Of a DNA stretch of 64,000 nt, positions 3,979 through 63,335 are shown one piece after another. Position 1 is the first letter of the stretch, and every line of letters starts with the position of its first letter. The stretch spans positions 9,872,121 to 9,936,120 of the forward strand of contig JABAKD010000016.1 of NCBI GenBank assembly GCA_012845835.1, in the 5' to 3' direction. The stretch is from Undaria pinnatifida (taxonomy: Eukaryota; Sar; Phaeophyceae; Laminariales; Alariaceae). The position numbers were made by a program, and so were the translations under genes. The notes under the pieces are model-generated. The model was not told where the DNA came from and did no database searches. It was given only the letters and a program-made list of their open reading frames with translations.

Positions 3979-4273
3979 CGTTTTTTTTTTTTTTTCGCAC
4001 ACTCGTAATTTCCAGCTTCTGGACAAGCCGTGGTCACAGGTGTCGTCCCTTCTTCCCGCCGGTTCGTGCCTTCAACTTTTATCGCGAATATGGTTCAGCA
4101 ATCCCACTGCTCGTCGATTTTTCATCGGATGTTGCTAACCCACGCTCTCGCGTTTTCCGCAAGTCAATTTGTGCGCAAGAAAAAGTCCCCACGAATATAT
4201 GAGCATGGATTCGAATTCACGAAACTGACCTATACCAGGCTCGAGGATAACCTGATACGCCACCGGGGTGACT
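3979..4273 (-). mobile_element. tRNA-derived SINE, copy 1
   Basis: Read on the minus strand it starts with a tRNA-like head: a Pol III A box, TGGCGTATCAGG, and a B box-like GAATTCGAATCC about 45 bases on. A body of about 220 bp follows, ending in a poly(A) tract (the T-run at 3979-3993). A second copy lies at 40030-40345 and is estimated by eye at about 85% identical. Target duplications were not identified. Confidence 0.7.
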
Positions 4274-16960: not shown

Positions 16961-16972
16961 TTTTGGTGCAAA

Positions 16973-17572
16973 AACTGCAACCCCTACCGTGGGATGACTC
17001 CATTATTACTTAATCCAACAACTGCAACCCCTACCGTGGGATGACTCAACACTGCAACCCCTACCGTGGGATGACTCCACGGCAACCCCTATCGTGGAAT
17101 GACTTCACGGCAACCCCTACCGTGGGATAACTCCACGGCAACCCCTACCGTGGGATGACTCCACGGCAACCCCTACCGTGGGATGATTCCACGGCAACCC
17201 CTACCGTGGGATGGTTCCATTATTAGGTAATCCAACAACTGCGACCCCTATCGTGGGATGACTCCACGGCTACCCCTACCATGGGATGACTCCACGGCAA
17301 CTCCTACCGTGGGATGACTCCACGGCAACCCCTACCGTGGGATGATTCAACGGCAACCCCTACCGTGGGATGACTCCACGGCTACCCCTACCGTGGGATG
17401 ACTCCACGGCAACCTCTACCGTAGGATGGCTCCATTATTAGTTAATCCAACAACTGCAACCCCTACCGTGGGATGACTCCACGGCAACCCCTACCGTGGG
17501 ATGACTCCACGGCAACCCCTACCGTGGGATGACTCCACGGCAATCCCTACCGTGGGAGGACTCAAAATCAGT
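16973..17572. repeat. 28-bp satellite with 216-bp higher-order period
   Basis: About 20 copies of a 28-bp unit (CAACCCCTACCGTGGGATGA, then CTCCACGG). Three times a spacer with CCATTATTA..TAATCCAACAACTG interrupts it, at 17011, 17228 and 17443, giving a super-period of about 216 bp (seven units plus spacer). Confidence 0.93.
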
Positions 17573-41300: not shown

Positions 41301-44300
41301 GAGCATTGTAACCAACGAATCGGCTGGTGCTCGCCTGTCAGGTGTATTGCTCCACGTACTGCTGCATTTGCTGTACTGCTGTACTGGGTAGGTCCGTGGG
41401 TGGATGGTGGGTGGTGGGTGGGTGGCGGACGGCGGCTCGCTCCCCGAGATGGCTGAGTATCGTCAAAAAAATGAAACTCCCCCCGTCTGTTTCCTGTTTC
41501 ATACAACGTCCTCAAGAACAAACCAACTAACTGCTCCCCCCGTGCCAGGTGTACTGCTGTACGTAGTGCTGCACTGCTGTACTGCTGTATATAGTAAAGG
41601 TCTGGTCGGTGGGTGGGTGGAGGGTCCACTGCGTCGTCCGTGGTGGGTGGGTGGGCCGTTCCGTACGTGGGAGTCCTTCTTCGTCCTGTGGGAGATGAAC
41701 CTTTTTGTCTCGTTTCTAAAATGCCGGCCTCCCACTGGTGCTTGGGAGTACCACCGTCCCCACTCCTGCACTCCTCTGTCCTTTACTATCGTACGTACTG
41801 CTGCCCTGTTATTATTTTGTTTTTGTATTACTTAAATACAGAGGATGATACCTTTACTACCGTACGTACTGCTGCAGTGCCGTACTGCCTTGTTGTTATT
41901 TTGTTATTATAGTACTTACATACAGAGGATGATACAGCACCAAGTTGTTTTTGTCCGCCATACCGGCCGGCAACAGGCATACTTCGGGAGTAAATATGAA
42001 ATCGGGAGTCAGCTACGACGTGCCAGGTTCATACTACTGGTACATACGTCTCACTACTCGCCCCTGAAAAATCCCGACTACACCGCTTGCCACCCAGAAA
42101 GGACTACGAGCTGGGCCGGGCAAGAAGCTAACATTTCTTCAGAAAAGCATATCTCTGCTGCTCCTAACTCGTTTCCCAAACCGAAAAGACTGCTGAAATC
42201 CTTGAACTCAGGGCTGCAACAGAGAGCCCTCCACAAGCCCTGTACGAGTTGGTTGTACAAACGAAGGGAAACTGACCAATCACAGCACGCTATGATGCGG
42301 CGTGAAAGCGGCGTGAAACCGTCATTTCCGCCCGATTTTTTTTTTTAAATGCGGCGGAATTGCAAGTGGTGGTCAAAACAGCAGCAGCAACAACAGCAGC
42401 AGCAAGGCAACGCTCTCTTGCCAGCGCGCTGTGCCGCGACGCCGCACATGCCTGACGTGATAGAGTGGAAGAGGACCTCCGTCCCTACCGTAATCCATGA
42501 CAAAACCCGGAAGAAGTGGCGGCTGTCGCTGCAATACACGCACAGCAAGAAGAAACGAACTCAGCGGCAATTATCACGGCTTTTCGACACGCGGGAGGAG
42601 GCTGAGGGATGCTCCAGTTGGTGGAGATTGAGCTGGGAACAAGGCCACAAGGGCACGAAGATCGACCCGGGCACTCTTGCCGACGAAGCCTCAAGCATGG
42701 ATACTGAGATTCCTCAAGTTGTGGAGCTTTGCAGAGATGTGTACGTAACATTGCTGTCGAGCGTACCACCGATTTCCAGCAACACCATGTTCTCGCAGGT
42801 GCATGCCGTTGGGGTTGCTCGAGTATGATGCGCACCCGTGCATACCGAACAACTGCTCAACAACGAGTTGCAGCGCTCCTTACGTTGCTGTACCACATGC
42901 GCTGCCGCTGTAGTGTTGTATTCCGTGACCTGTACGTTTGTTTACCAGCGCACACATGCAGCAGTCTCCACTGCTGCTGTGCAGCACCTGTGCAGACCGC
43001 TGTTTTACAGCAGTCTCCACTGCTGCTGTGCAGCACCTGTGCAGACCGCTGTTTTACAGCAGTCTCCACTGCTGCTGTGCAGCAGCAGTGCAGACCGCTG
43101 TTTTACAGCTGTCTCCACTGCTGCTGTGCAGGACCTGTGCAGACAGCTGTTTTACAGCAGTCTCCACTGCTGCTGTGCAGCACCTGTGCAGACCGCTGTT
43201 TTACTGACTGTATTTGATCGCTGTGTGATGGTGCGTGGTGGGTCTGATGAAACGAATGAATTCTCCCAAGGTGTCGAAGTGGCGTCTGCCCGGTAGATGC
43301 AAGTACTTGCAGGTTGCGGTAGGATCCCGTTGCTGGTTGCTCGTGTTCATATAGGGGTGTTCTTACATACAGGGAGTGCTCGCGATAGCGTACGAGTATT
43401 GTTTGGAATGATCCGGGCGTTTTTTGTACGAGAAATGACCAGCGCGAGCATTCGTACGCGTCATTCCGAAGTTATTCTCGTGGAGTGAAACAAGAATGTA
43501 GCCAGCCTGCTGCGCAGTAAAGTACCTATCATACTAATAAAACAGATTTTATCACCGTGTATTCCTGTTGCAGCTGAACCCAAACGTCTTGAAATGCAAT
43601 GCGCACGCATTGCACGAGCTTCTCCAAGTGCAAACATGACATTACTGGGACAGTGGAGGGCGTATTCGCCACCGAATCGATGGTGGGAATTTTGCTCACG
43701 GCAGAGGTGAATCACAAATTCGCGGTGCCCCGCTCAGTTTTTCGAGTTCGGACCTGAAATTTTGACACGTGATTCGTATCAATATTTCCAACACACTCAA
43801 TGTTGATCACCTCGAAAAAAAAAAAATCTTCCGGACTTACGGCGGGTCAAAAGAATTCTGAAATCATGAAATCGAGGGAAAATGCTCCGAAAAAAAAAAA
43901 AAAAAAAATTGATCAGCATTCAGTGTTTTTGTAAGCTTGATAAGAATCACGTCTCAAATTTTCAGATCCGAACTCGAAAAATTGAGCGGGGCAGAGCGAA
44001 ATCAAGCTTTTTTCAGCTTCTTGCCCGGCCCAGCTCGTACCACGTTTATATTTAAAAAAAATATATTGCACCTGGTACCTACGATATCACTACGCTTTTT
44101 CCCTAGGGTATTCCTCAGCTCCAGAGTGACTGGAGCCTGTCCTGTGACCACGGACTTGATTATGCGAGTTAATGTGAGAACATCAACAACAACTACGCAT
44201 ACGCACGTCAAACTCAAGCCGATTGGGAAAAAAAGAAGAGACTAAAAAAAAAAAAAAGGTGAGGAAAAAAAACGAAACGTGAAAGAAAAAGAAAAGAAAC

Positions 44301-45789: not shown

Positions 45790-45996
45790 GGCCGCGTTCG
45801 CGTGTCTGCTGCGGGCACAGGAGCGCTTGGAGGCGGCTCTGTGTGTCTCGCTGAGCACGCTTACGACTAGGAATTTAAAGCAATAATCTGGATGGTGTGG
45901 TGTCGCATGCAGGTTGTTGTGATTAAAACATTAAAACTGTCATCCCTTTACCCTGTTGTACTCGGCCGCGTCCGTAATGGAAAACCCATGTCCTTT

Positions 45997-46416
45997 TGTG
46001 AGGAAGTAGACTAAAAATGTTGAACAACAAATGCTACTCGAGTTATTTCCTTCTAAACTCGTTTTTCCACCACATTCTCCCCCACTAAACCTGACATATT
46101 TCCCAGATTATGTCAGGAACCCCGATGAGGTACCCAGTATCCAATGCGACTTTTTCGGTATTGGAGTGACTTGCAATGATCCTCTACATTGCTCTCATCG
46201 TTGTTTTTCAAGTGGTAGAGTTTTACAGGTTCTTGAACGTGAGAAAATCCCTTTTTTTTTTCTTTTTTCTGGGAAAGACGGTGAGAATCGAACCAGCGAC
46301 CTCACTGTTCATAATCTCACATCCTGTCTGCGACGCCATTGTGAGGAAGTAGACTAAAAATGTTGAACAACAAATGCTACTCGAGTTATTTCCTTCTAAA
46401 CTCGTTTTTCCACCAC
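45997..46416 (-). repeat. Left inverted arm with 77-bp direct repeats and tRNA-like module
   Basis: A 77-bp sequence starting TGTGAGGAAGTAGAC is present at 45997-46073 and again at 46340-46416, with no differences seen by eye. Between them is a body ending in a pyrimidine tract (46248-46268) and a minus-strand tRNA-like segment with TGGCGTCGCAGACAGG and GGTTCGATTCT. The part 45997-46283 recurs inverted at 59662-59958. The layout copies that of the 13.5-13.9 kb element: in both, GACGCCAT touches the second direct repeat. Confidence 0.7.
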
Positions 46417-47153
46417 TACGGCAAACTTTTTGTAGGGTGGGACAGAATTTTTGGGAGTTTAAATAGCCGTCGGAGGCGGTAAAAAATGGGTAAAAAGGGG
46501 GGGGACGGAAAAAAAGAACGAAGAAAGAGAGAGGAGCACGAGGCTAGAGCAAAGCACAGCTAAGCGAGCCTTGCTTACGCGATTGGCGACGGCCGTGATG
46601 GAGAAACGAGATGCACGAGGTCAGGCCTCGAATGTAATTGGAATGCATACATCCTGCGGGATGTTTGGGTGCTTGGCGGGCGCTCATGACCAAGAGAAGC
46701 TGCGGTACTTGGATGCTTTTTTTCGGAGGGCGCCTACTTTTAAACCAAGATAATAAGGAGAAGGTACGTACCAGGCACCATGTACGGGTACCAACTGTGA
46801 TTTAGAGGGGGCGTAGGCAGGCAGGTACATGCCCTCCATCCGCGGAGAAGGAAACGTATATAGCAACAAAGGTCCAACAAGGCTGTCTCCACTTTTCCTG
46901 AAGCCGTCATAGCATCGAACCTGCTTCTTTGGCTTCCTCTGTTGGGACGAAGCCAGTATGAAATTCGCAAGGCCTAGGGTAAGAGGGTGTTGTTTTAAAT
47001 TTCAGTACTACAGTGTAGTGTGGTTGAACTGGACTACTTGTCGTAGTTGCAAACGCAAGGCTGTTCGCGGTACGAAGCAAACGCGAACGCGTGCTATCAT
47101 ATGTAGGACCGACCCGTGGTGGCGTGGTGTGGTTGTTCTATTTGCAGGAGCGT

Positions 47154-47335
47154 GCGGTGCGGTGCGGTGCGGTGCGGTGCGGTGCGGTGCGGTGCGGTGC
47201 GGTGCGGTGCGGTGCGGTGCGGTGCGGTGCGGTGCGGTGCGGTGCGGTGCGGTGCGGTGCGGTGCGGTGCGGTGCGGTGCGGTGCGGTGCGGTGCGGTGC
47301 GGTGCGGTGCGGTGCGGTGCGGTGCGGTGCGGTGC
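47154..47335. repeat. (GGTGC)n microsatellite, unit 1
   Basis: About 36 perfect copies of the pentamer GGTGC, followed by one GCCGT interruption. Because the period is 5, long ORFs run through it in every frame (repeated CGAVR or HRTAP peptides); these are artefacts. Equivalent arrays occur at about 51541-51727 and 55936-56134. Confidence 0.95.
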
Positions 47336-48997
47336 CGTGCGATGATGCAGCTACGGTGCGGTTCGGTGGTACCGCGCTGCACCTCGTTGCAACTGGAAGC
47401 TGCCGCACGCCCGCACCGTAAGAGCGACGCGCACCCTTATTAAAAACGCTGACAAATAAAAGCAAGCGTACAGCAAATATAATTTGAAGTCAGATGCGTG
47501 CACAGCAGATACCCGCCATCCTTGCATCGTACAAGTACAACAGTACGTACGTACTTTGGCGTGCCTTCCGACTTGTGAGCTGGCTTTGCTTGTGCTGCCG
47601 GCTAAGTCTCCAGCCACCCCCCCGCCCAACTTAACGCTCCTGCCAGATGATGGACCGGGACGCTGCGGAGGCACACCCGAAATTCCAGGCGTTGGGTACG
47701 AGTGCAGGCGTCGTGAAAGGAATCGAAATGGCCTCGAGTCAAGATGACCTCCCGATCCTGCCCGAGTAACGAACACACTCCGTTGTAAGCGTGGCGTAAG
47801 AAGGTGGGCTACATTGGTGCACATCACAGCAGACGGCAGCAAGCTGTTATAAACAAACTCCTTGCGAAACTACTCTGACGTCATGTCGGAGGGTCATGTC
47901 GGAGGTACCCAATTCGTAATGTCGTTCATGTGGCCGACCTTTTTCTTCTAACCTGCTGTTGCAGCTGCTGCTGCTGCTGTTGCTGCTGTTTGGTGTTTAT
48001 GTGCAGTTTGAGTACAACGCATACGCTAGTGCTCGCGTACCGCTCCGGTTGCTTGCTTCTGTTAATTTTGTGTTCCGCTTGATAGGAGTCTCACCGACGG
48101 TGACCCCAACACTGTAACAGGAACGTGCGGTGATAATAGTTTTTACTTGGTATAATCATCACCGGGGACGGCGTGGTTCTGTGGAGTAGTGTTGAGGGGA
48201 CCCCCGGCGACAAGAGGAAAGCTGCGCGAGGCCTGAATTTCAAGGGAATGCGCCAAAATCCACGGGCAACTTTCACGGGGTTGATATCGAGGAGATCTGG
48301 AACCAATATTATATGGGCGCTTGAGGCGCGACATCAGTTGGTCTCGCGGACGCGGACGCGTTAGCTCCACTTCGATGGGCCACTCATAGGGGAAAACTTT
48401 GCACCTCCTCCGTCTTGGTAGCCTCGTGCTCTTGCTTAGTGCGGTTGCAGTTGATTTATTTTCGTCAGTGTCGATTGCACCTCATTCAACCTGCTCTTTT
48501 CTCCTGTTGCTTCGTTGCGTGCTCCGTCTTTCCCTTCTCGTTGCTGCTGTGTTTTGTTGTTTACTGCTGCTGCTGCTTCCTTCCATGCGTACTGCTGTAC
48601 CTTATTTTCTTTTTTTCGTAGGGCGAGGACCTTGAAGATGGAGAACCCGCTACTAGCGTTGTGACGATTACTGGCTAGCGTGTCTAGTCTGATCCCTGTG
48701 CGCGTTTGCACTATTTTTAAATAGTGGACGGAGAGGTGTTGATTGTGCATCTTGCGTACCATTTAGTTGCAGAACGACACACCCCTGCGTGGTTTTGGTG
48801 CTGCTCCATTTCGAACCCTTTGGTTTACCTCCCCCTTGCAGATCGTCGTACACCCTCTCGGCTGGGAGTTGGATGGTGGATGGTGCCTGATGGCTCTTCT
48901 CAGAAACTTCGAGAGTCAGTCCTTTGAATTTTGTATTTGGGCACAGTACACGTTAAGAAGTACGCATGACTGTGAATACCGATGTCAGATATATTAT

Positions 48998-49290
48998 AAA
49001 AAATGAAAATACACTCCAGCTGTGAGATGGAAGAACTTGTCGAAACTCATCTTTGCAAGCTGTGTGTGATACTCCGATCGCGCGTATTACGGGTTGTGTG
49101 TCCTCATTAAGGATATAGGTCGGCGACTCCCCTTACAACTACAGTGTAGCTGTCAGGGTCGACAGGGTGATGTCAGTCAGTCTGTGCGCGGAAACTATAA
49201 AACCCGTTTCTGAGTGGTACAAAATCTGACAGCTGTGGAAGGAAATGTATCCGTTTGTCAAGTGAATCCTGTAAGTCGAATAACCGGTGA
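48998..49290 (+). repeat. Dispersed repeat R copy inside tandem unit 1
   Basis: Full-length family member with the TATAAA-containing half. It is followed by two degenerate echoes of that half (GTGCGTGGAAGCTATAAATC near 49411 and GTGCGTGGAAACTGTACATT near 49531). Identical positions recur in units 2 (53390-53682) and 3 (57797-58089). Confidence 0.8.
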
Positions 49291-50426
49291 GGGGAGGGCG
49301 GGGTTTTGAAGGACGCGGGGGGCTGGTTTTGATCAAAAGCGAGCCGGGTTGGATGGGGGGGGAAAGGGGGGGGGGGGGGGACTGGGGGGGAGCGGACGGG
49401 CGGGCAATTTGTGCGTGGAAGCTATAAATCCTTCAAGGGGATAAATCTGACGGTTTTGGAAAACAACAAATGAAAAATGCACCAGTTTATCATAGGGTTT
49501 ATCATAGGGGGGGGGGTGGGGCAGCAATCTGTGCGTGGAAACTGTACATTATTTCAAGGGGGTAAATGTGACGGTTTGGGAAATAATGCATCATTTTATC
49601 ATGTATATCCTGGGGTAAGTCGTACAATCAGTGAGTAGAGAGAGGGCGGAGTGTTCGAGGGGGTGGGGGTGGGATGGGGTGGGGGGCTGTGGGGAGGTGG
49701 GGGGCGGGGGCGGGGGCGGGGCGGGGGGTGGGGGGGGGGGGGGGAGAAGCAACGGAATGGATGGCTCTAAAAAGATAATGAGGTGATATCCAGTGCGTGA
49801 AGGGTTTATTATATATAAGTTGCTGTTGAATCACACCCAGAACGAGGGCGGTTCATTGACGGCAACCTCTAGGCGTACATTTGGCTCGTGTGCTCGCCTG
49901 ACGAAAGAGACCGCATCATTCGTTCGCGTGCCTGCATTATTTAAAATTTCCCATTTATGTCCCCCTTTACCTGCTCTCCCCTTCTATCTTTACTAGCCCC
50001 CCCCCCTACTCGGCTGCTCGTGTGAAAAAAATAGACGCAATCAGTCACATCGCAGGTCATCAGGAGACCAAAAAAAGTGGGCGGCCAAAAAAACAAAAAA
50101 AAAACACAAGAAAGTGCAAGCGATTAGTAGTATCGTACATTTTATGCTTTGTTGTACCGTGCATTGCCGTGTATTATGCCTGGTATATCACCGTACATTA
50201 TGCCTGGTGTTAAAGCCATTAAATGAGAGCCTCGGCGTAAGAAAGAGCAAACACATTCCGTAAATATTTAACCTCGTAATAATAGAAAAAATACTTGGGC
50301 CAAAACAAAACAAATCTGCACATATTATACCAGGACAGGTACAAAAAAAAGACGAAAAAAAGACAAATTTGCATACTATATCTGGTATAAAAAATGAAAA
50401 ACAGCGGCAAAAAAAAAAGGAACGAG

Positions 50427-50490
50427 GGTCGCCGGGGCTCGAACCAGTGATGTTGGTGCTTACTGGGCCCAAGTTGAGGTGGTGATCCCA
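50427..50490 (-). repeat. tRNA-like module in tandem unit 1
   Basis: On the minus strand, a B box GGTTCGAGCCC lies near 50440, with GGGATCACCACC as a weak A box candidate about 45 bases upstream and a run of T after the 3' end (a Pol III stop signal). Copies lie in unit 2 (about 54824-54888) and unit 3 (about 59231-59296). I cannot fold a full cloverleaf, so it is called a tRNA-derived repeat, not a tRNA gene. Confidence 0.45.
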
Positions 50491-50534
50491 CAGTTTGGGG
50501 ATGCAGCAGGACGCGAGCTGTCGAAGGGACTTAC

Positions 50535-50700
50535 ACCTTGCGCTTTGCCGTGATCCGTGAACCTGTATGTCCCTCGAGGGACTCCAGTGCTTCTCGAGCC
50601 GTCAGGGTGCTTTGTACCCTCTGGGCAACCCCCGGCTCCTCACAGAACCGAGCGTGAGCCCCAAACATAGAGGGAAAAGACTGGGATATACTGAAAACAA
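50535..50700 (-). other. Exon-like coding patch in each tandem unit, unknown
   Basis: On the minus strand a potential acceptor (TATATCCCAG) precedes an open frame reading FPSMFGAHARFCEEPGVAQR and ending ITAKRK just before AAG|GTGTAAGT, a good donor. The amino acid composition is protein-like and not low complexity, unlike the rest of the unit. Copies lie at about 54932-55097 and 59340-59505. I do not recognise the family. It could be a captured exon fragment or chance. Confidence 0.3.
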
Positions 50701-50773
50701 GTTTAATTCTTTGTCGTTCTTTGTCGATTCTTTGTCGTGAATGCGCAATCTGATTGGTCATTCTTTGTCGGAG

Positions 50774-50833
50774 TCTGTCCCACCCTCAAAACTTTTCGCC
50801 ACCACTGGCAAACTTTTTGTAGGGTGGGACAGA
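50774..50833. other. Hairpin at the unit 1/2 junction
   Basis: TCTGTCCCACCCT (50774-50786) and its exact reverse complement AGGGTGGGACAGA (50821-50833) enclose a 34-nt loop containing GCCACCACTGGC. The same hairpin spans the unit 2/3 and unit 3/partial junctions (loops around 55185-55217 and 59593-59625). At the left edge of unit 1 the first arm is missing, replaced by the flanking arm. Confidence 0.8.
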
Positions 50834-53800
50834 ATTTTTGGGAGTTTAAATAGCCGTCGGAGGCGGTAAAAAATGGGTAAAAAGGGGGGGGACGGAAAAA
50901 AAGAACGAAGAAAGAGAGAGGAGCACGAGGCTAGAGCAAAGCACAGCTAAGCGAGCCTTGCTTACGCGATTGGCGACGGCCGTGATGGAGAAACGAGATG
51001 CACGAGGTCAGGCCTCGAATGTAATTGGAATGCATACATCCTGCGGGATGTTTGGGTGCTTGGCGGGCGCTCATGACCAAGAGAAGCTGCGGTACTTGGA
51101 TGCTTTTTTTCGGAGGGCGCCTACTTTTAAACCAAGATAATAAGGAGAAGGTACGTACCAGGCACCATGTACGGGTACCAACTGTGATTTAGAGGGGGCG
51201 TAGGCAGGCAGGTACATGCCCTCCATCCGCGGAGAAGGAAACGTATATAGCAACAAAGGTCCAACAAGGCTGTCTCCACTTTTCCTGAAGCCGTCATAGC
51301 ATCGAACCTGCTTCTTTGGCTTCCTCTGTTGGGACGAAGCCAGTATGAAATTCGCAAGGCCTAGGGTAAGAGGGTGTTGTTTTAAATTTCAGTACTACAG
51401 TGTAGTGTGGTTGAACTGGACTACTTGTCGTAGTTGCAAACGCAAGGCTGTTCGCGGTACGAAGCAAACGCGAACGCGTGCTATCATATGTAGGACCGAC
51501 CCGTGGTGGCGTGGTGTGGTTGTTCTATTTGCAGGAGCGTGCGGTGCGGTGCGGTGCGGTGCGGTGCGGTGCGGTGCGGTGCGGTGCGGTGCGGTGCGGT
51601 GCGGTGCGGTGCGGTGCGGTGCGGTGCGGTGCGGTGCGGTGCGGTGCGGTGCGGTGCGGTGCGGTGCGGTGCGGTGCGGTGCGGTGCGGTGCGGTGCGGT
51701 GCGGTGCGGTGCGGTGCGGTGCGGTGCCGTGCGATGATGCAGCTACGGTGCGGTTCGGTGGTACCGCGCTGCACCTCGTTGCAACTGGAAGCTGCCGCAC
51801 GCCCGCACCGTAAGAGCGACGCGCACCCTTATTAAAAACGCTGACAAATAAAAGCAAGCGTACAGCAAATATAATTTGAAGTCAGATGCGTGCACAGCAG
51901 ATACCCGCCATCCTTGCATCGTACAAGTACAACAGTACGTACGTACTTTGGCGTGCCTTCCGACTTGTGAGCTGGCTTTGCTTGTGCTGCCGGCTAAGTC
52001 TCCAGCCACCCCCCCGCCCAACTTAACGCTCCTGCCAGATGATGGACCGGGACGCTGCGGAGGCACACCCGAAATTCCAGGCGTTGGGTACGAGTGCAGG
52101 CGTCGTGAAAGGAATCGAAATGGCCTCGAGTCAAGATGACCTCCCGATCCTGCCCGAGTAACGAACACACTCCGTTGTAAGCGTGGCGTAAGAAGGTGGG
52201 CTACATTGGTGCACATCACAGCAGACGGCAGCAAGCTGTTATAAACAAACTCCTTGCGAAACTACTCTGACGTCATGTCGGAGGGTCATGTCGGAGGTAC
52301 CCAATTCGTAATGTCGTTCATGTGGCCGACCTTTTTCTTCTAACCTGCTGTTGCAGCTGCTGCTGCTGCTGTTGCTGCTGTTTGGTGTTTATGTGCAGTT
52401 TGAGTACAACGCATACGCTAGTGCTCGCGTACCGCTCCGGTTGCTTGCTTCTGTTAATTTTGTGTTCCGCTTGATAGGAGTCTCACCGACGGTGACCCCA
52501 ACACTGTAACAGGAACGTGCGGTGATAATAGTTTTTACTTGGTATAATCATCACCGGGGACGGCGTGGTTCTGTGGAGTAGTGTTGAGGGGACCCCCGGC
52601 GACAAGAGGAAAGCTGCGCGAGGCCTGAATTTCAAGGGAATGCGCCAAAATCCACGGGCAACTTTCACGGGGTTGATATCGAGGAGATCTGGAACCAATA
52701 TTATATGGGCGCTTGAGGCGCGACATCAGTTGGTCTCGCGGACGCGGACGCGTTAGCTCCACTTCGATGGGCCACTCATAGGGGAAAACTTTGCACCTCC
52801 TCCGTCTTGGTAGCCTCGTGCTCTTGCTTAGTGCGGTTGCAGTTGATTTATTTTCGTCAGTGTCGATTGCACCTCATTCAACCTGCTCTTTTCTCCTGTT
52901 GCTTCGTTGCGTGCTCCGTCTTTCCCTTCTCGTTGCTGCTGTGTTTTGTTGTTTACTGCTGCTGCTGCTTCCTTCCATGCGTACTGCTGTACCTTATTTT
53001 CTTTTTTTCGTAGGGCGAGGACCTTGAAGATGGAGAACCCGCTACTAGCGTTGTGACGATTACTGGCTAGCGTGTCTAGTCTGATCCCTGTGCGCGTTTG
53101 CACTATTTTTAAATAGTGGACGGAGAGGTGTTGATTGTGCATCTTGCGTACCATTTAGTTGCAGAACGACACACCCCTGCGTGGTTTTGGTGCTGCTCCA
53201 TTTCGAACCCTTTGGTTTACCTCCCCCTTGCAGATCGTCGTACACCCTCTCGGCTGGGAGTTGGATGGTGGATGGTGCCTGATGGCTCTTCTCAGAAACT
53301 TCGAGAGTCAGTCCTTTGAATTTTGTATTTGGGCACAGTACACGTTAAGAAGTACGCATGACTGTGAATACCGATGTCAGATATATTATAAAAAATGAAA
53401 ATACACTCCAGCTGTGAGATGGAAGAACTTGTCGAAACTCATCTTTGCAAGCTGTGTGTGATACTCCGATCGCGCGTATTACGGGTTGTGTGTCCTCATT
53501 AAGGATATAGGTCGGCGACTCCCCTTACAACTACAGTGTAGCTGTCAGGGTCGACAGGGTGATGTCAGTCAGTCTGTGCGCGGAAACTATAAAACCCGTT
53601 TCTGAGTGGTACAAAATCTGACAGCTGTGGAAGGAAATGTATCCGTTTGTCAAGTGAATCCTGTAAGTCGAATAACCGGTGAGGGGAGGGCGGGGTTTTG
53701 AAGGACGCGGGGGGCTGGTTTTGATCAAAAGCGAGCCGGGTTGGATGGGGGGGGAAAGGGGGGGGGGGGGGGACTGGGGGGGAGCGGACGGGCGGGCAAT

Positions 53801-55203
53801 TTGTGCGTGGAAGCTATAAATCCTTCAAGGGGATAAATCTGACGGTTTTGGAAAACAACAAATGAAAAATGCACCAGTTTATCATAGGGTTTATCATAGG
53901 GGGGGGGGTGGGGCAGCAATCTGTGCGTGGAAACTGTACATTATTTCAAGGGGGTAAATGTGACGGTTTGGGAAATAATGCATCATTTTATCATGTATAT
54001 CCTGGGGTAAGTCGTACAATCAGTGAGTAGAGAGAGGGCGGAGTGTTCGAGGGGGTGGGGGTGGGATGGGGTGGGGGGCTGTGGGGAGGTGGGGGGCGGG
54101 GGCGGGGGCGGGGCGGGGGGGTGGGGGGGGGGGGGGGGGAGAAGCAACGGAATGGATGGCTCTAAAAAGATAATGAGGTGATATCCAGTGCGTGAAGGGT
54201 TTATTATATATAAGTTGCTGTTGAATCACACCCAGAACGAGGGCGGTTCATTGACGGCAACCTCTAGGCGTACATTTGGCTCGTGTGCTCGCCTGACGAA
54301 AGAGACCGCATCATTCGTTCGCGTGCCTGCATTATTTAAAATTTCCCATTTATGTCCCCCTTTACCTGCTCTCCCCTTCTATCTTTACTAGCCCCCCCCC
54401 CTACTCGGCTGCTCGTGTGAAAAAAATAGACGCAATCAGTCACATCGCAGGTCATCAGGAGACCAAAAAAAGTGGGCGGCCAAAAAAACAAAAAAAAAAC
54501 ACAAGAAAGTGCAAGCGATTAGTAGTATCGTACATTTTATGCTTTGTTGTACCGTGCATTGCCGTGTATTATGCCTGGTATATCACCGTACATTATGCCT
54601 GGTGTTAAAGCCATTAAATGAGAGCCTCGGCGTAAGAAAGAGCAAACACATTCCGTAAATATTTAACCTCGTAATAATAGAAAAAATACTTGGGCCAAAA
54701 CAAAACAAATCTGCACATATTATACCAGGACAGGTACAAAAAAAAGACGAAAAAAAGACAAATTTGCATACTATATCTGGTATAAAAAATGAAAGAAACA
54801 GCGGCAAAAAAAAAAGGAACGAGGGTCGCCGGGGCTCGAACCAGTGATGTTGGTGCTTACTGGGCCCAAGTTGAGGTGGTGATCCCACAGTTTGGGGATG
54901 CAGCAGGACGCGAGCTGTCGAAGGGACTTACACCTTGCGCTTTGCCGTGATCCGTGAACCTGTATGTCCCTCGAGGGACTCCAGTGCTTCTCGAGCCGTC
55001 AGGGTGCTTTGTACCCTCTGGGCAACCCCCGGCTCCTCACAGAACCGAGCGTGAGCCCCAAACATAGAGGGAAAAGACTGGGATATACTGAAAACAAGTT
55101 TAATTCTTTGTCGTTCTTTGTCGATTCTTTGTCGTGAATGCGCAATCTGATTGGTCATTCTTTGTCGGAGTCTGTCCCACCCTCAAAACTTTTCGCCACC
55201 ACT
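50807..55203. repeat. 4.4-kb tandem unit 2
   Basis: Second unit (4397 bp), colinear with unit 1. Its (GGTGC)n array is one repeat longer than in unit 1. It has GAAAGAAACAG near 54790 where unit 1 has GAAAAACAG. The start is preceded by the end of unit 1, forming the junction hairpin. Confidence 0.92.
51541..51727. repeat. (GGTGC)n microsatellite, unit 2
   Basis: Same pentamer array as in unit 1, 5 bp longer by comparison of the flanking coordinates. Confidence 0.93.
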
Positions 55204-58200
55204 GGCAAACTTTTTGTAGGGTGGGACAGAATTTTTGGGAGTTTAAATAGCCGTCGGAGGCGGTAAAAAATGGGTAAAAAGGGGGGGGACGGAAAAAAAG
55301 AACGAAGAAAGAGAGAGGAGCACGAGGCTAGAGCAAAGCACAGCTAAGCGAGCCTTGCTTACGCGATTGGCGACGGCCGTGATGGAGAAACGAGATGCAC
55401 GAGGTCAGGCCTCGAATGTAATTGGAATGCATACATCCTGCGGGATGTTTGGGTGCTTGGCGGGCGCTCATGACCAAGAGAAGCTGCGGTACTTGGATGC
55501 TTTTTTTCGGAGGGCGCCTACTTTTAAACCAAGATAATAAGGAGAAGGTACGTACCAGGCACCATGTACGGGTACCAACTGTGATTTAGAGGGGGCGTAG
55601 GCAGGCAGGTACATGCCCTCCATCCGCGGAGAAGGAAACGTATATAGCAACAAAGGTCCAACAAGGCTGTCTCCACTTTTCCTGAAGCCGTCATAGCATC
55701 GAACCTGCTTCTTTGGCTTCCTCTGTTGGGACGAAGCCAGTATGAAATTCGCAAGGCCTAGGGTAAGAGGGTGTTGTTTTAAATTTCAGTACTACAGTGT
55801 AGTGTGGTTGAACTGGACTACTTGTCGTAGTTGCAAACGCAAGGCTGTTCGCGGTACGAAGCAAACGCGAACGCGTGCTATCATATGTAGGACCGACCCG
55901 TGGTGGCGTGGTGTGGTTGTTCTATTTGCAGGAGCGTGCGGTGCGGTGCGGTGCGGTGCGGTGCGGTGCGGTGCGGTGCGGTGCGGTGCGGTGCGGTGCG
56001 GTGCGGTGCGGTGCGGTGCGGTGCGGTGCGGTGCGGTGCGGTGCGGTGCGGTGCGGTGCGGTGCGGTGCGGTGCGGTGCGGTGCGGTGCGGTGCGGTGCG
56101 GTGCGGTGCGGTGCGGTGCGGTGCGGTGCGGTGCCGTGCGATGATGCAGCTACGGTGCGGTTCGGTGGTACCGCGCTGCACCTCGTTGCAACTGGAAGCT
56201 GCCGCACGCCCGCACCGTAAGAGCGACGCGCACCCTTATTAAAAACGCTGACAAATAAAAGCAAGCGTACAGCAAATATAATTTGAAGTCAGATGCGTGC
56301 ACAGCAGATACCCGCCATCCTTGCATCGTACAAGTACAACAGTACGTACGTACTTTGGCGTGCCTTCCGACTTGTGAGCTGGCTTTGCTTGTGCTGCCGG
56401 CTAAGTCTCCAGCCACCCCCCCGCCCAACTTAACGCTCCTGCCAGATGATGGACCGGGACGCTGCGGAGGCACACCCGAAATTCCAGGCGTTGGGTACGA
56501 GTGCAGGCGTCGTGAAAGGAATCGAAATGGCCTCGAGTCAAGATGACCTCCCGATCCTGCCCGAGTAACGAACACACTCCGTTGTAAGCGTGGCGTAAGA
56601 AGGTGGGCTACATTGGTGCACATCACAGCAGACGGCAGCAAGCTGTTATAAACAAACTCCTTGCGAAACTACTCTGACGTCATGTCGGAGGGTCATGTCG
56701 GAGGTACCCAATTCGTAATGTCGTTCATGTGGCCGACCTTTTTCTTCTAACCTGCTGTTGCAGCTGCTGCTGCTGCTGTTGCTGCTGTTTGGTGTTTATG
56801 TGCAGTTTGAGTACAACGCATACGCTAGTGCTCGCGTACCGCTCCGGTTGCTTGCTTCTGTTAATTTTGTGTTCCGCTTGATAGGAGTCTCACCGACGGT
56901 GACCCCAACACTGTAACAGGAACGTGCGGTGATAATAGTTTTTACTTGGTATAATCATCACCGGGGACGGCGTGGTTCTGTGGAGTAGTGTTGAGGGGAC
57001 CCCCGGCGACAAGAGGAAAGCTGCGCGAGGCCTGAATTTCAAGGGAATGCGCCAAAATCCACGGGCAACTTTCACGGGGTTGATATCGAGGAGATCTGGA
57101 ACCAATATTATATGGGCGCTTGAGGCGCGACATCAGTTGGTCTCGCGGACGCGGACGCGTTAGCTCCACTTCGATGGGCCACTCATAGGGGAAAACTTTG
57201 CACCTCCTCCGTCTTGGTAGCCTCGTGCTCTTGCTTAGTGCGGTTGCAGTTGATTTATTTTCGTCAGTGTCGATTGCACCTCATTCAACCTGCTCTTTTC
57301 TCCTGTTGCTTCGTTGCGTGCTCCGTCTTTCCCTTCTCGTTGCTGCTGTGTTTTGTTGTTTACTGCTGCTGCTGCTTCCTTCCATGCGTACTGCTGTACC
57401 TTATTTTCTTTTTTTCGTAGGGCGAGGACCTTGAAGATGGAGAACCCGCTACTAGCGTTGTGACGATTACTGGCTAGCGTGTCTAGTCTGATCCCTGTGC
57501 GCGTTTGCACTATTTTTAAATAGTGGACGGAGAGGTGTTGATTGTGCATCTTGCGTACCATTTAGTTGCAGAACGACACACCCCTGCGTGGTTTTGGTGC
57601 TGCTCCATTTCGAACCCTTTGGTTTACCTCCCCCTTGCAGATCGTCGTACACCCTCTCGGCTGGGAGTTGGATGGTGGATGGTGCCTGATGGCTCTTCTC
57701 AGAAACTTCGAGAGTCAGTCCTTTGAATTTTGTATTTGGGCACAGTACACGTTAAGAAGTACGCATGACTGTGAATACCGATGTCAGATATATTATAAAA
57801 AATGAAAATACACTCCAGCTGTGAGATGGAAGAACTTGTCGAAACTCATCTTTGCAAGCTGTGTGTGATACTCCGATCGCGCGTATTACGGGTTGTGTGT
57901 CCTCATTAAGGATATAGGTCGGCGACTCCCCTTACAACTACAGTGTAGCTGTCAGGGTCGACAGGGTGATGTCAGTCAGTCTGTGCGCGGAAACTATAAA
58001 ACCCGTTTCTGAGTGGTACAAAATCTGACAGCTGTGGAAGGAAATGTATCCGTTTGTCAAGTGAATCCTGTAAGTCGAATAACCGGTGAGGGGAGGGCGG
58101 GGTTTTGAAGGACGCGGGGGGCTGGTTTTGATCAAAAGCGAGCCGGGTTGGATGGGGGGGGAAAGGGGGGGGGGGGGGGACTGGGGGGGAGCGGACGGGC

Positions 58201-59611
58201 GGGCAATTTGTGCGTGGAAGCTATAAATCCTTCAAGGGGATAAATCTGACGGTTTTGGAAAACAACAAATGAAAAATGCACCAGTTTATCATAGGGTTTA
58301 TCATAGGGGGGGGGGGTGGGGCAGCAATCTGTGCGTGGAAACTGTACATTATTTCAAGGGGGTAAATGTGACGGTTTGGGAAATAATGCATCATTTTATC
58401 ATGTATATCCTGGGGTAAGTCGTACAATCAGTGAGTAGAGAGAGGGCGGAGTGTTCGAGGGGGTGGGGGTGGGATGGGGTGGGGGGCTGTGGGGAGGTGG
58501 GGGGCGGGGGCGGGGGCGGGGCGGGGGGTGGGGGGGGGGGGGGGGGGAGAAGCAACGGAATGGATGGCTCTAAAAAGATAATGAGGTGATATCCAGTGCG
58601 TGAAGGGTTTATTATATATAAGTTGCTGTTGAATCACACCCAGAACGAGGGCGGTTCATTGACGGCAACCTCTAGGCGTACATTTGGCTCGTGTGCTCGC
58701 CTGACGAAAGAGACCGCATCATTCGTTCGCGTGCCTGCATTATTTAAAATTTCCCATTTATGTCCCCCTTTACCTGCTCTCCCCTTCTATCTTTACTAGC
58801 CCCCCCCCCTACTCGGCTGCTCGTGTGAAAAAAATAGACGCAATCAGTCACATCGCAGGTCATCAGGAGACCAAAAAAAGTGGGCGGCCAAAAAAACAAA
58901 AAAAAAACACAAGAAAGTGCAAGCGATTAGTAGTATCGTACATTTTATGCTTTGTTGTACCGTGCATTGCCGTGTATTATGCCTGGTATATCACCGTACA
59001 TTATGCCTGGTGTTAAAGCCATTAAATGAGAGCCTCGGCGTAAGAAAGAGCAAACACATTCCGTAAATATTTAACCTCGTAATAATAGAAAAAATACTTG
59101 GGCCAAAACAAAACAAATCTGCACATATTATACCAGGACAGGTACAAAAAAAAGACGAAAAAAAGACAAATTTGCATACTATATCTGGTATAAAAAATGA
59201 AAGAAACAGCGGCAAAAAAAAAAGGAACGAGGGTCGCCGGGGCTCGAACCAGTGATGTTGGTGCTTACTGGGCCCAAGTTGAGGTGGTGATCCCACAGTT
59301 TGGGGATGCAGCAGGACGCGAGCTGTCGAAGGGACTTACACCTTGCGCTTTGCCGTGATCCGTGAACCTGTATGTCCCTCGAGGGACTCCAGTGCTTCTC
59401 GAGCCGTCAGGGTGCTTTGTACCCTCTGGGCAACCCCCGGCTCCTCACAGAACCGAGCGTGAGCCCCAAACATAGAGGGAAAAGACTGGGATATACTGAA
59501 AACAAGTTTAATTCTTTGTCGTTCTTTGTCGATTCTTTGTCGTGAATGCGCAATCTGATTGGTCATTCTTTGTCGGAGTCTGTCCCACCCTCAAAACTTT
59601 TCGCCACCACT
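55204..59611. repeat. 4.4-kb tandem unit 3 (with 44-bp start of a fourth to 59655)
   Basis: Third unit (4408 bp); its (GGTGC)n array is three repeats longer than in unit 1. After it, 59612-59655 repeats the first 44 bases of a unit (to GGGAGTTTAAA) and then switches to the inverted arm. It shares the GAAAGAAACAG variant with unit 2. Confidence 0.92.
55936..56134. repeat. (GGTGC)n microsatellite, unit 3
   Basis: Same pentamer array, 15 bp longer than in unit 1 by comparison of flanking coordinates. Confidence 0.93.
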
Positions 59612-59661
59612 GGCAAACTTTTTGTAGGGTGGGACAGAATTTTTGGGAGTTTAAACCACTA

Positions 59662-59958
59662 CACCGTCTTTCCCAGAAAAAAAGAAAAAAAAAAAAAAAA
59701 AAAGGGATTTTCTCACGTTCAAGAACCTGTAAAACTCTACCACTTGAAAAACAACGATGAGAGCAATGTAGAGGATCATTGCAAGTCACTCCAATACCGA
59801 AAAAGTCGCATTGGATACTGGGTACCTCATCGGGGTTCCTGACATAATCTGGGAAATATGTCAGGTTTAGTGGGGGAGAATGTGGTGGAAAAACGAGTTT
59901 AGAAGGAAATAACTCGAGTAGCATTTGTTGTTCAACATTTTTAGTCTACTTCCTCACA
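59662..59958 (+). repeat. Right inverted arm of the 4.4-kb array
   Basis: Reverse complement of 45997-46283, running from CACCGTCTTTCCCAG to CTTCCTCACA. The only obvious difference is a longer A-rich tract (59677-59703). It closes the tandem array on the right, so the whole block 45997-59958 is bounded by inverted repeats. Confidence 0.85.
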
Positions 59959-60019
59959 CTTTGGTCACGAAACCCGAGCAGGGTGCTCGTCGTGTGCTCG
60001 CCGTAGAGGTGCGGCGGTG

Positions 60020-60654: not shown

Positions 60655-61390
60655 GACAGGAGCAGAGTTGTTGTTGTTGTTCTCACATTAACTCGCATAA
60701 TCAAGTCCGTGGTCACAGGACAGGCTCCAGTCACTCTGGAGCTGAGGAATACCCCAGGGAAAACACACACACAACCCAAGGTGGTACACGCATATATCAC
60801 AGCTGACGCAATTCATGCCTCCACCAGAAACATATAAAAGTGAAATCGGGAGTCAGTCTACGATGTGCCAGGTCCAGGCCGGTGCATACGTCTCACTACT
60901 CACGCCTGGAGAAACCAAATATTCCGATTGCCACCCAAGGAAGACTACCACGTATATATTACACGTAGTATCTATCACTACGCACAGCATACGCACGACA
61001 GGCATAAGTCAATTGGAGAAAAAGAAACAAAGAAAAAAAAAGAAGATAAAGGAAAGGAAAGAAAAGAGAAGAAAAAACGAAACAAGACGAGAAAGGCAAG
61101 CAAAGAGAAGCAAAAGACAAGAAAAGCAAGAAAAGACAAGACAGGAAAGCAAGGAAAGAAGAAGAGAAAAAAAGAAAAAAGAAATAGAAGAAGAAAAGAA
61201 AGAAAAATGTCATACTAGCAGACCCTAGGAACTGGCTAAGGATGGCATTGGGCTAACAGAGGGTATCACGTCCATCATCAATGGCACCTGGGAGAGAACG
61301 CAACATGGCGAAGAAGTCAGGGCGGTCTTATGCTATCTTGTGATGGCCATTAGAAAGCCCACAACAATTTCAATACGATGATGGCCAAAC
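60655..61390 (+). repeat. Composite dispersed repeat X (right copy)
   Basis: Contains ACTCGCATAATCAAG, CACAGGACAGGCTCCAGTC with its hairpin partner CTCTGGAGC, AAATCGGGAGTCAG, TACGTCTCACTACTC, a long (GAAA)n-like purine tract (61015-61205), and GTGATGGCCATTAGAAAGCC. Fragments of the same sequences lie in intron 1 at 40590-40745, 41990-42125, 44108-44180 (inverted) and 44190-44630. Confidence 0.65.
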
Positions 61391-61499
61391 CCAGACTTCA
61401 GTCTCTTGGGCATGACGCTCCCCCTTCCGCCCCTCCCCCCTTCCTCCCTTTCCCCCTCCCCCCTCCCCCCCCTCCCCCAGTCCCCTCCCCGCCCCCCCC

Positions 61500-63335
61500 C
61501 CCCCCCTTCCCCCTCCCCCCGGCCGCTTAGAGATGCCAACGGTGGATGACGCTGCCGCAGCCTTTGCGCGTCGCTTTGCAGCTTTGCGTCTCTCAGTTTC
61601 ATGCCAATTCCGCATGAACAACTCGGCTCCCTCCTCTACTCTTCGAAACCATCTGCCAGCCTTCTGAGCAGCCTTTCGCCATCCTTCGAATTTCATTCCA
61701 AAAACCGACATATCCTCCTTCAGATGATCCATCCAGTCTTTCTCTTGCCCCCATGAGTAGCCTTTACCCCCAACAAACTCCCCAAACATCACCCTCTGTG
61801 GCAGACGCTCCTCCCCCATGCGTGCCACGAATCCCGCAAACAAAATCCTCCGTTTGCGCACTATCACCTCAACGCTCTCGGAATCTGTCTGGGCAAGCGC
61901 GTCGGCGTACGATAGGGTGTGGTCGTCGCGCTTCCGTTTCCGCCATCCAAGGCATCGGAGGAGCATGGAGCGGTGAACCCGACGTAGCCTGTCATAGTCA
62001 GGCTTCTTCGGGCTCCACGTCATGCAACCGTACAGCAGTGTCTCGACCACCTCAGCTTTCAGCAACCGCACCTTCAACCGTAAACGCACACCCGGGCGAT
62101 CATAGATTTCCATCTTGTACCGCTGGAAACACGCCCAGGCCCTCTGAAGACGCCGCGTTATTTCAGTGCTAAGGTTTCTGTCTGCGGTGATAGCCCCGCC
62201 CAAGTATACAAACTGGATTGTTTGTTTGTAAACCTGGCCGGCTGCATTGATCGTGAAGGACACCTTCCCCCCGCTTTTGGTTTCCAGGCACATTATCTCT
62301 GTTTTTGCCTCGGATACTGTAAGCCCGAACGACGAACACGCAGTCACGATCGTCGTCATCATCCTCTCCAGACCTTCTGATGATCGCGATACGATGCCCG
62401 CATCGTCCGCGTACAGCATACCCCACACTCTCTGCACCCCCTCCCCCTCCTTCCCCCTCCGTCCGTCGACTTTGCCTGTGCGTGAAGTGCCCTTCGCGCC
62501 TTCCTTCTTTCGTTGAAGCTGCACCATGTTGTCCGTGATGGCTGCTTCAGCGAGGAAGCGTTTCTCGGCCACACGCAGTACCGCAGTGAAAAAACATGTT
62601 GAACAGCAGTGGCGCGAGCACGCATCCTTGCCTGAGACCTTGCCCCACGTCGAACTTATCCGAGCACTCTCCATCATCCAGCCGCACGCATGCTTGCATA
62701 CCGTCGTGGAATTTGCGGATGACGGCGAGCATTCTCGGTGGCACGCCAAAACGAGCAAGGACATCCCACAAAAGGCTTCGGTCGACGGAGTCGTATGCTT
62801 TGGTGAGGTCGATAAAGCACATGTACAAGGGGGTGTCCTTCTTCCGCGCCAGTTCCTGCAGTCGTCGTACTACGAACATCATGTCAACCGTCGAGCGTTG
62901 GGGTCTGAACCCACACTGTTCCTCCGGCAGAATGTTCTCGCGTTCGCAATAGTCACTCAGGCGACCCGCGATGACTTTGAGGAGTACTTTACCGGCGTGA
63001 GCCACGAGGGAGATGCCACGATAATTGCCACACTCAGTCCGATCTTTCTTCTTGTGAAGCACCTTAATCGTAGCATCTTTCCATTGTTGGGGTACGCCAC
63101 CCCCCCTCCACACAGCGACGATGATATGGTGGAAGTTTCCGAGGGTGTTGAATTCTCCTTCGTCGGCCAAAACCTTCAAGAGCTCGGCCGGGAGACCATC
63201 GGGCCCTACCGCCTTTCGGTTCGCCAGCGCCCGGATCGCCTCCTCTACTTCGTACCTAGACGGGACATCGTCCAGTGGTCTGCACGGGGGCCACTGCTCA
63301 AGCTCGCCCACAGTAAGAGCCCAGCGATGTTTCTA
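61500..63335 (-). mobile_element. 5'-truncated LINE (APE-type non-LTR retrotransposon)
   Basis: Minus-strand element holding the reverse transcriptase and C-terminal region but no endonuclease. It is cut off at about 63335, just upstream of the start of the RT domain. The coding region ends near 61530 and passes into a C-rich low-complexity tract (61420-61520). A further repeat (60655-61390) abuts its 3' side and recurs in intron 1. No target duplication was identified. Clade not assigned. Confidence 0.88.
61530..63311 (-). pseudogene. LINE reverse transcriptase, frameshifted
   Basis: RNA-dependent DNA polymerase of a LINE. Frame one (63311-62590) shows [36 protein letters not shown], the catalytic [13 protein letters not shown] and [15 protein letters not shown]. 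Frame two (62600 down to about 61530) carries LYADDAGIVSRS with the catalytic YADD, VSEAKTEIMCL, then the thumb and C-terminal region with FVARMGEERLPQRVMF and RRVEEGAELFMRNWH. The frames meet at a T-homopolymer near 62590-62596, consistent with one extra T. The upstream frame has a TAG near 63335 where homology ends. The endonuclease domain is absent, so the copy is dead on arrival. Confidence 0.88.

Follow-up and report, generated by a model that had tools for sequence, protein, structure and literature searches.

How did three nearly identical 4.4-kb units come to lie in direct orientation between two inverted arms? The locus is part of a 64,000-nt stretch of the Undaria pinnatifida contig JABAKD010000016.1 (the window, whose coordinates are used throughout), and an earlier note on this DNA had offered foldback-derived amplification, a composite element, or a rolling-circle or break-induced copying event as possible origins. 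As that note described, the array consists of three full head-to-tail units and 44 nt of a fourth, enclosed by inverted arms of ~290 bp: the direct repeat starts at 46420, 50807, 55204 and 59612 (spacings 4387, 4397 and 4408), and the fourth copy (59612-59655) is 100% identical to the others. Base-by-base alignment of the three units, a check that the note had proposed, yields four variable places, which are simple tracts apart from one 2-bp indel: the copy number of (GTGCG)n (38, 39 and 41), two G-runs, one at unit column 3102 and the other, which includes a shifted T, at columns 3325-3328, and an AG indel of 2 bp at columns 3998-3999. Pairwise mismatches number 1, 0 and 2, every one of them within the 3325-3328 G-run, and copies 2 and 3 have a common 2-bp difference from copy 1. 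The note's attribution of unit differences to homopolymers and to the length of a 5-bp repeat stands, while its 4-bp indel was not found, the nearest candidates being the 3325-3328 G-run, whose length varies by 3 to 4 columns, and the separate 2-bp indel. Because there is no clear substitution among the three 4.4-kb units in this alignment, the amplification appears to be recent, as had been argued.

Individually, the units resemble a non-coding DNA transposon of 4381-4402 bp, here called E. On the plus strand, copy 1 occupies 46420-50800 (4381 bp), copy 2 50807-55197 (4391 bp) and copy 3 55204-59605 (4402 bp), while the truncated copy 4 holds the 27-bp left terminal inverted repeat (TIR) and a further 17 bp. 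The TIRs are 27 bp long and imperfect with GGC/GCC ends (form GGC...GGGTGGGACAGA), and both ends are found in 3/3 full copies; their alignment scores 18, a value reached by 0/2000 single-base shuffles of the 60-nt right end, the best of which scored 13. No further copy of the TIR occurs elsewhere in the window when up to 8 substitutions are allowed. The same six bases, ACCACT, separate the copies at 3/3 junctions (50801-50806, 55198-55203 and 59606-59611, plus strand), and ACCACTAC stands on both sides of the array (46412-46419 and 59655-59662, plus strand), its left copy overlapping the end of the left-hand retroelement described below. For comparison, random pairs in this window match at rates of 8.65e-5 for 8-mers and 4.2e-4 for 6-mers. 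We read the ACCACTAC flanks as a target duplication of 8 bp that apparently belongs to the array, seen at one site where the first A of the right copy is common to E copy 4, such that the final A of the stub may be part of the duplication.

The content of E is consistent with a non-autonomous DNA transposon, presumably mobile now or in the past. A Pfam scan of stop-to-stop frames of at least 90 aa gave no match above family cut-offs in 18/18 frames overlapping 46420-50806, and a gene-bearing element was rejected on this ground; matches to Sprouty (E-value 0.0013) and T4SS_pilin (0.037) in one frame, and to a riboflavin transporter (0.046) in another, fall below the cut-offs and were taken as chance. 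Copy 1 has four subterminal direct repeats of TTCTTTGTCG close to its right TIR (50707-50770, plus strand), the tandem part of which is found in copies 2 and 3 too; the exact TTCTTTGTCG does not occur on either strand outside the array. The plus strand of copy 1 also carries three G-quadruplex-like runs which, at 0.68 per kb versus 0.60 outside, are not enriched. Helitrons have no TIR. They are also without target duplication (PMC9659126), and were rejected as a class for E on account of its TIRs and apparent 8-bp duplication. The criteria that we used for the Mutator/IS256-like superfamily are an 8-9 bp duplication and a Mutator-type DDE transposase; the duplication beside E is 8 bp, read at one site, and E is at most a candidate member of this superfamily. 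Across the window there were no RNA families at gathering thresholds and no tRNA genes (ARAGORN); a sub-threshold match to mir-1421 (E-value 0.11), partly inside the GTGCG repeat, was taken as chance. Neither exact 23-mers from the left end of E nor a 17-mer and a 23-mer from the terminal repeat of the arm retroelement matched anything in viral_contigs or genome_contigs, and of six stretches of viral_contigs that fit the pattern of a neighbouring reverse transcriptase, none encodes a relative; as these collections are viral or prokaryotic, such null matches say little for a eukaryotic element.

The arms are best described as inverted copies of a retroelement of ~420 bp, resembling a TRIM and separate from E. 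The pairing reported by the earlier note (45997-46283 with 59662-59958) is confirmed at 286/297 identical columns with 10 gap columns, the differences being confined to a poly-A stretch, and the outer 272 nt (45997-46268 and 59687-59958) are 100% complementary. The left arm as then delimited is a portion of a longer, complete or nearly complete element, R (45997-46416, minus strand), bounded by 77-bp direct terminal repeats that are LTR-like and 100% identical. The 5' repeat (46340-46416, minus strand) matches the 3' repeat (45997-46073, minus strand) at 77/77 positions, recurs inverted at 59882-59958, and the sense strand terminates in ...CTCACA. The note had been silent on this repeat, as on the 27-bp TIRs, the ACCACT spacers and the ACCACTAC flanks. 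Two further motifs were read by eye on the minus strand: TGGCGTCGCAGAC (46326-46338), which begins one base past the 5' terminal repeat and which resembles a primer-binding site (PBS), and AGTGGGGGAGAA (46075-46086), one base ahead of the 77-bp 3' terminal repeat and similar to a polypurine tract (PPT).

The criteria that we applied to R as a TRIM are short direct terminal repeats in a non-coding element of <1 kb in total, a PBS and PPT in their customary positions, and a target duplication of 4-6 bp. R is 420 bp long with identical 77-bp repeats and no Pfam-supported frame (for R and its partner together, 8/8 stop-to-stop frames of at least 60 aa gave no match above cut-off), and it shows no target duplication of its own, having CTTT on one side and CTAC on the other. 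As an alternative to a TRIM, R may be read as a tRNA-derived SINE dimer. The right arm is a second TRIM-like copy, R' (59662-59958, plus strand), which is without the 5' terminal repeat and the next ~55 bp, so that one 5' end is absent from the head-to-head pair of R and R'. Twin-primed or 5'-inverted retroposition is expected to leave complementary parts of an element, and was rejected for this pair since both arms hold the same 3' 287-297 bp. CTTT adjoins the outer ends of both R (45993-45996, plus strand) and R' (59959-59962, plus strand), and is a possible 4-bp target duplication of the pair; given a random 4-mer match rate of 0.0044 in this window, the composite element suggested by the earlier note is weakly possible. 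Because the ACCACTAC duplication lies at the ends of the array, the array was probably inserted into the R/R' pair, and the arms would then be older than the array.

For the origin of the array we favour, at somewhat less than an even chance, insertion of E at the seam of R and R' followed by multiplication through an aberrant transposase joint between its left end and the sixth base past its right end. E would have inserted between two head-to-head, already inverted TRIM-like elements, at an empty site predicted to read ...CCACCACTACACCGTC.... A transposase supplied in trans would then have acted on E such that its left end, instead of joining a new target, joined DNA 6 bp past its right end on the same molecule or on the sister chromatid. 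The resulting junction, right TIR - ACCACT - left TIR, would have the form of the joint in a copy-out 'figure-eight', a circle or a tandem dimer. Three full copies might have come from replication round this joint or from one dimer enlarged by unequal exchange, and the fourth would have halted at, or later been trimmed to, 44 bp. The spacer ACCACT is identical to the first 6 nt of the right flank (the last 6 of the left flank are CACTAC), as would be expected had the left end attacked the flank on the right, and junctions two bases short of the duplication hint that transposition machinery, not foldback, made the array. This origin is close to a rolling-circle or aberrant-transposition event, the first of which is among the earlier note's suggestions. 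The geometry would be different were AC to belong to the left end of E, leaving a true duplication of 6 bp (ACCACT), and the 44-bp stub is unpredicted by any simple version of the model, each of which needs an extra event. A bolder form of the same idea, in which a Mutator/IS256-type eukaryotic TIR transposon was multiplied in place by a figure-eight joint, with three laps of replication and a stop 44 bases into the fourth, seems to us doubtful; if true, the locus would be a chromosomal snapshot of rolling-circle-like replicative movement in a class of transposons usually called cut-and-paste.

The main rival, possible in our judgement and on balance unlikely, is double insertion with unequal exchange, whereby a second E entered the duplicated target beside the first, the dimer grew by unequal exchange, and the right-most copy was excised with incomplete repair leaving 44 bp. 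Interrupted gap repair can leave a stub next to a target duplication, and the stub observed here, adjoining the duplication, looks like such a product. Preference for particular insertion sites is described as the major route to transposon dimers in Drosophila (McGurk and Barbash, 2018, via PMC12628747; also cited in PMC12368964). Exact same-site insertion, however, predicts a spacer of 8 bp, and 6 bp are found at 3/3 junctions; a second target shifted by 2 bp would give the 6-bp spacer, but predicts CCACCACTAC past the last copy where CCACTAC or ACCACTAC is observed, and so requires a trimming deletion as well. We consider it improbable that the array arrived in one step as a preformed concatemer. 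In that case rolling-circle copying of an E circle would have supplied the DNA, and the inserted piece would have run from the left TIR to an arbitrary position in the fourth turn, 44 bp along, with an 8-bp duplication of the target. The exact TIR at the left end, the arbitrary right end and the same 8 bp flanking the whole are what such one-ended transposition, a term with bacterial precedents, would leave. The insertion responsible for melanism in the peppered moth reportedly has a partial last copy and a duplication. It is a 9-kb tandemly inserted element (PMC12368964), and an anomalous rolling-circle product of Bari1 is cited as having reintegrated within an LTR retrotransposon (PMC9659126). 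Had the circle arisen anywhere but at this very site, however, its spacer ACCACT would need to have matched by coincidence the first 6 bp of the target that it entered.

An assembly artefact, that is, a repeat collapsed or expanded at a heterozygous or hard-to-read locus, is a thin prospect: the near-identical units do differ mainly where reads are error-prone, in homopolymers and in a tandem repeat of 5 bp, yet assembly error would not be expected to produce defined TIRs, the same 6-bp spacer at each junction, an 8-bp repeat that matches at the two outer ends and a fourth-copy stub, nor a 2-bp difference from copy 1 that copies 2 and 3 have in common. Least probable of all is amplification driven by a foldback or palindrome, or by break-induced copying between the arms. 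The perfect complementarity of the arms over 272 nt speaks for it, as does the near-palindrome (arms of 287 and 297 bp) that the empty site would form, but the arms end exactly at the 3' end of R with unlike DNA outside, the units are direct rather than inverted, and the array itself is bordered by an apparent target duplication. As the arms probably predate the array, the foldback origin put forward in the earlier note is not supported, and we rejected it. Nor does the locus resemble a foldback transposon, in which long inverted repeats around the mobile unit would be the ends of the element itself, as the arms belong to a separate retroelement with terminal direct repeats of its own, and E has its own TIRs and matching 8-bp flanks. 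Inverted arms around an array thus do not necessarily imply foldback amplification.

The origin favoured here, a joint formed 6 bp outside E on its right, bears on a wider question, as tandem arrays of whole DNA transposons are seeds of satellite DNA, and both double insertion and a rolling-circle-like transposase error are listed as their sources (PMC12628747). One close parallel is Bari1 of Drosophila melanogaster, which forms tandem clusters of roughly 80 and 6 copies; in its head-to-tail arrays the same two bases are absent from every copy, a rolling-circle-like transposase error was proposed, and its reviewers state that, to their knowledge, such two-base-short arrays are without a comparable described example (PMC8834629). 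The E array, with whole TIR transposons head to tail and each internal junction two bases short, may be an independent case with known flanks and near-identical copies, and would permit both routes to be tested through junction arithmetic across the genome. It differs from Bari1 in that E has no recognizable coding frame and its membership in Tc1/mariner is not shown, and in its apparent 8-bp duplication, its three copies and stub, and the 6 bp of flank-like sequence between copies. In Drosophila, hobo forms tandem runs that reach 16 copies (McGurk and Barbash, 2018, via PMC12628747), and double-insertion dimers of this kind are similar to the E array in that head-to-tail DNA transposons seed a tandem array; same-site insertion, in contrast, keeps the full target duplication between copies, whereas the E spacer is 2 bp short.

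At the level of the junction, the apparent 8-bp duplication and the 6-bp spacer of the E array fit the copy-out junctions of the IS256 family as described in PMC7780238. There, ISCth4 makes 8-bp target duplications and TIR-TIR spacers of 6-8 bp that derive from the recipient end's flank, with best integration at a 6-bp spacer; IS256 circles carry spacers of 5, 6, 7 or 19 bp, and tandem dimers besides circles are indicated for IS256 by the title of a work cited. Since either end of ISCth4 serves as donor in such joints (PMC7780238), one direction read at one site in the E array lends weak support. The likeness comprises an 8-bp target duplication, apparent in the case of E, a TIR-TIR joint and a 6-bp spacer copied from one flank, while the differences are that IS256 and ISCth4 are bacterial, encode their own transposase, and are described with joints on figure-eights or circles, not in a chromosomal array. 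IS256-family transposases are called similar to eukaryotic Mutator-like ones (PMC7780238), and for plant Mutator-like elements there are proposals of circular intermediates and descriptions of circles that contain filler sequence (PMC5907723, citing others); the literature that we surveyed on IS256/Mutator-like joints yielded no eukaryotic Mutator-like element with a figure-eight joint. Finally, R is similar to the TRIMs described in PMC4717578 in its length of 420 bp, its short direct terminal repeats, its PBS-like and PPT-like motifs and its want of a recognized coding frame, and differs in the head-to-head arrangement of R and R' with one 5' end absent and no demonstrable target duplication of R itself.

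The repeated unit, E, lies in direct copies starting at 46420, 50807, 55204 and 59612 (spacings 4387, 4397 and 4408 bp), the fourth being only 44 nt long, just as the earlier note had described. Aligned with one another, the three full units vary at four places, in the GTGCG copy number, in each of two G-runs and at a 2-bp AG indel by which copy 1 differs from copies 2 and 3. The mismatches between unit pairs (1, 0 and 2) all fall in one G-run (columns 3325–3326). Divergence among the copies is small, because no clear substitution separates any two of them over about 4.38 kb; its upper bound is near 3.4 × 10^-4 (rule of three, two comparisons taken as independent). The (GTGCG)n tract climbs along the array, with 38 copies in the first unit (47152–47341), 39 in the second (51539–51733) and 41 in the third (55936–56140), an increase that could record the order of copying or plain slippage.

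The ends of each full copy, GGCAAACTTTTTGTAGGGTGGGACAGA at the start and TCTGTCCCACCCTCAAAACTTTTCGCC at the close, form an imperfect terminal inverted repeat of 27 bp (TIR; alignment score 18, against a best of 13 in 2000 shuffles) that was not found in the window outside the array at up to 8 substitutions, ungapped. The sequence TTCTTTGTCG is directly repeated four times close to the right TIR and has no exact copy outside the array. GC skew reveals a strand bias: over the array, covered by seven 2-kb bins, it ranges from +0.08 to +0.20, and the remaining 25 bins lie between −0.16 and +0.09, so that the two ranges barely touch. The unit's 18 stop-to-stop frames (90 aa or longer) were all scanned; they gave only matches below the cut-offs, and none encodes a recognisable protein. 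Within copy 1, the segment 48989–49433 is one member of a dispersed family, for which seven further places are listed in the window; the longest of these is 38281–38703 (86%). E is therefore most simply seen as a non-autonomous element containing older repeat DNA.

The dispersed family has a core of about 110–180 bp, occurs in each of the three full copies, and occupies eight places with E counted once (listed pairwise matches about 71–97%); the others are 2260–2442, 25567–25673, 30308–30520, 37557–37818, 31828–31937 (minus strand) and 38136–38281, which abuts 38281–38703 in tandem. Another dispersed repeat (40583–40754, 44096–44194 inverted, 60666–60833; matches 83–98%) flanks the array in opposite orientations (44097–44194 versus 60666–60763, 98%). 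Tandem repeats occur at 42959–43204 (five 49-bp copies, CAG/CTG-rich, about 95–100% alike and partly self-complementary) and, with longer units, at 16969–17565 (several overlapping self-matches, about 75–91% alike). On the minus strand, reverse transcriptase matches at 62547–63311 (RVT_1, E-value 1.2e-25) and 61370–62764 (E-value 1.9e-6, slightly under the family cut-off) fall in two overlapping frames, and 61370–63311 is probably a decayed retroelement. With its retroelements and long stretches free of coding sequence, the window looks eukaryotic.

The left arm enclosing the array belongs to R, a 420-bp minus-strand element (46416–45997) whose 77-bp direct terminal repeats are 100% identical and can be framed TG...CA. 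TGGCGTCGCAGAC begins one base past the first terminal repeat and the purine run AGTGGGGGAGAA sits one base ahead of the second, both of which we take to be motifs of TRIM anatomy. Judged by its sequence, R has the anatomy of a TRIM, sharing the small size and terminal direct repeats of elements described as under 1 kb, with 4–6 bp duplications and without retrotransposon proteins (PMC4717578). None of eight stop-to-stop frames of at least 60 aa in R and its second copy, R', has a Pfam match above cut-off. Alternatively R might be a tRNA-derived SINE dimer, as its GGTTCGATTC stretch resembles a pol III B box; ARAGORN detects no tRNA there. R' (59662–59958, plus strand), the right arm, lacks the first terminal repeat and about 55 more bases. 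Both copies share the end ...CTTCCTCACA, past which they differ, one side continuing with AAAGGACATGG and the other with CTTTGGTCACG; it is thus the end of the element itself that limits the inverted repeat. The tetramer CTTT stands at both outer ends (4-mer chance match 0.0044) and may, we would guess, mark either a single event that inserted the pair or two insertions into one target and a later deletion.

The array is flanked by ACCACTAC on the left (46412–46419) and, after the 44-bp stub, on the right (59655–59662), where the first A could equally be the final base of the stub. All three junctions between copies carry the spacer ACCACT (50801–50806, 55198–55203, 59606–59611); for random position pairs in the window, chance sharing is 8.65e-5 for 8-mers and 4.2e-4 for 6-mers. 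We read the flanks as a putative 8-bp target duplication of the array and the spacers as the initial six bases of it; every internal joint lacks the dinucleotide AC. The stub retains exactly the left TIR and 17 further bases; copying may have halted at this point, or a complete fourth copy may have been excised and incompletely repaired. Removing the array and one duplication copy leaves ...TTTTTCCACCACTAC joined to ACCGTCTTTCCC..., a near-palindrome whose arms measure 287 and 297 bp. Provided that the 8 bp represent a target duplication, the two inverted retroelements are older than the array, which disfavours a foldback or arm-driven origin.

Transposon dimers in Drosophila are reported to form mainly by insertion at a target that is preferred or has been duplicated (summaries in PMC12628747 and PMC12368964). 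At the E array, insertion at the same site should keep all 8 bp in each spacer; a shifted target can yield a 6-bp spacer and then predicts two extra bases at the array's right edge. We regard such double insertion as the main rival, somewhat less likely than the route that follows. A direct joint made by a transposase, to which we give slightly less than an even chance, would arise if the left end of E attacked the flank six bases past the right end; the spacer matches the right array flank and not the left, so under this model the direction of attack would be fixed.

The transposases of the IS256 family are described as resembling those of Mutator-like elements in eukaryotes, and the ISCth4 enzyme as forming such joints with 6–8 bp spacers from the recipient flank, either end serving as donor, the 6-bp-spacer junction integrating best and 8-bp duplications being produced; for IS256 circles the figures are 5, 6, 7 or 19 bp (PMC7780238). 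The E array likewise pairs 6-bp spacers that match one flank with a putative 8-bp duplication. Prokaryotic Mutator-type elements are described as having 8–9 bp duplications and circular forms in common (PMC3942029, whose references include a paper on an extrachromosomal form of maize Mu), and a guayule study refers to circular intermediates that others proposed for Mutator-like elements and to circles with filler sequence that others described (PMC5907723). In Drosophila, reintegration of Bari1 inside an LTR retrotransposon is cited (PMC9659126), and Bari1 arrays, for which a rolling-circle-like transposase error is proposed as the cause, consist of copies that are each short of their first two bases (PMC8834629), much as two bases are missing at each internal joint of the E array.
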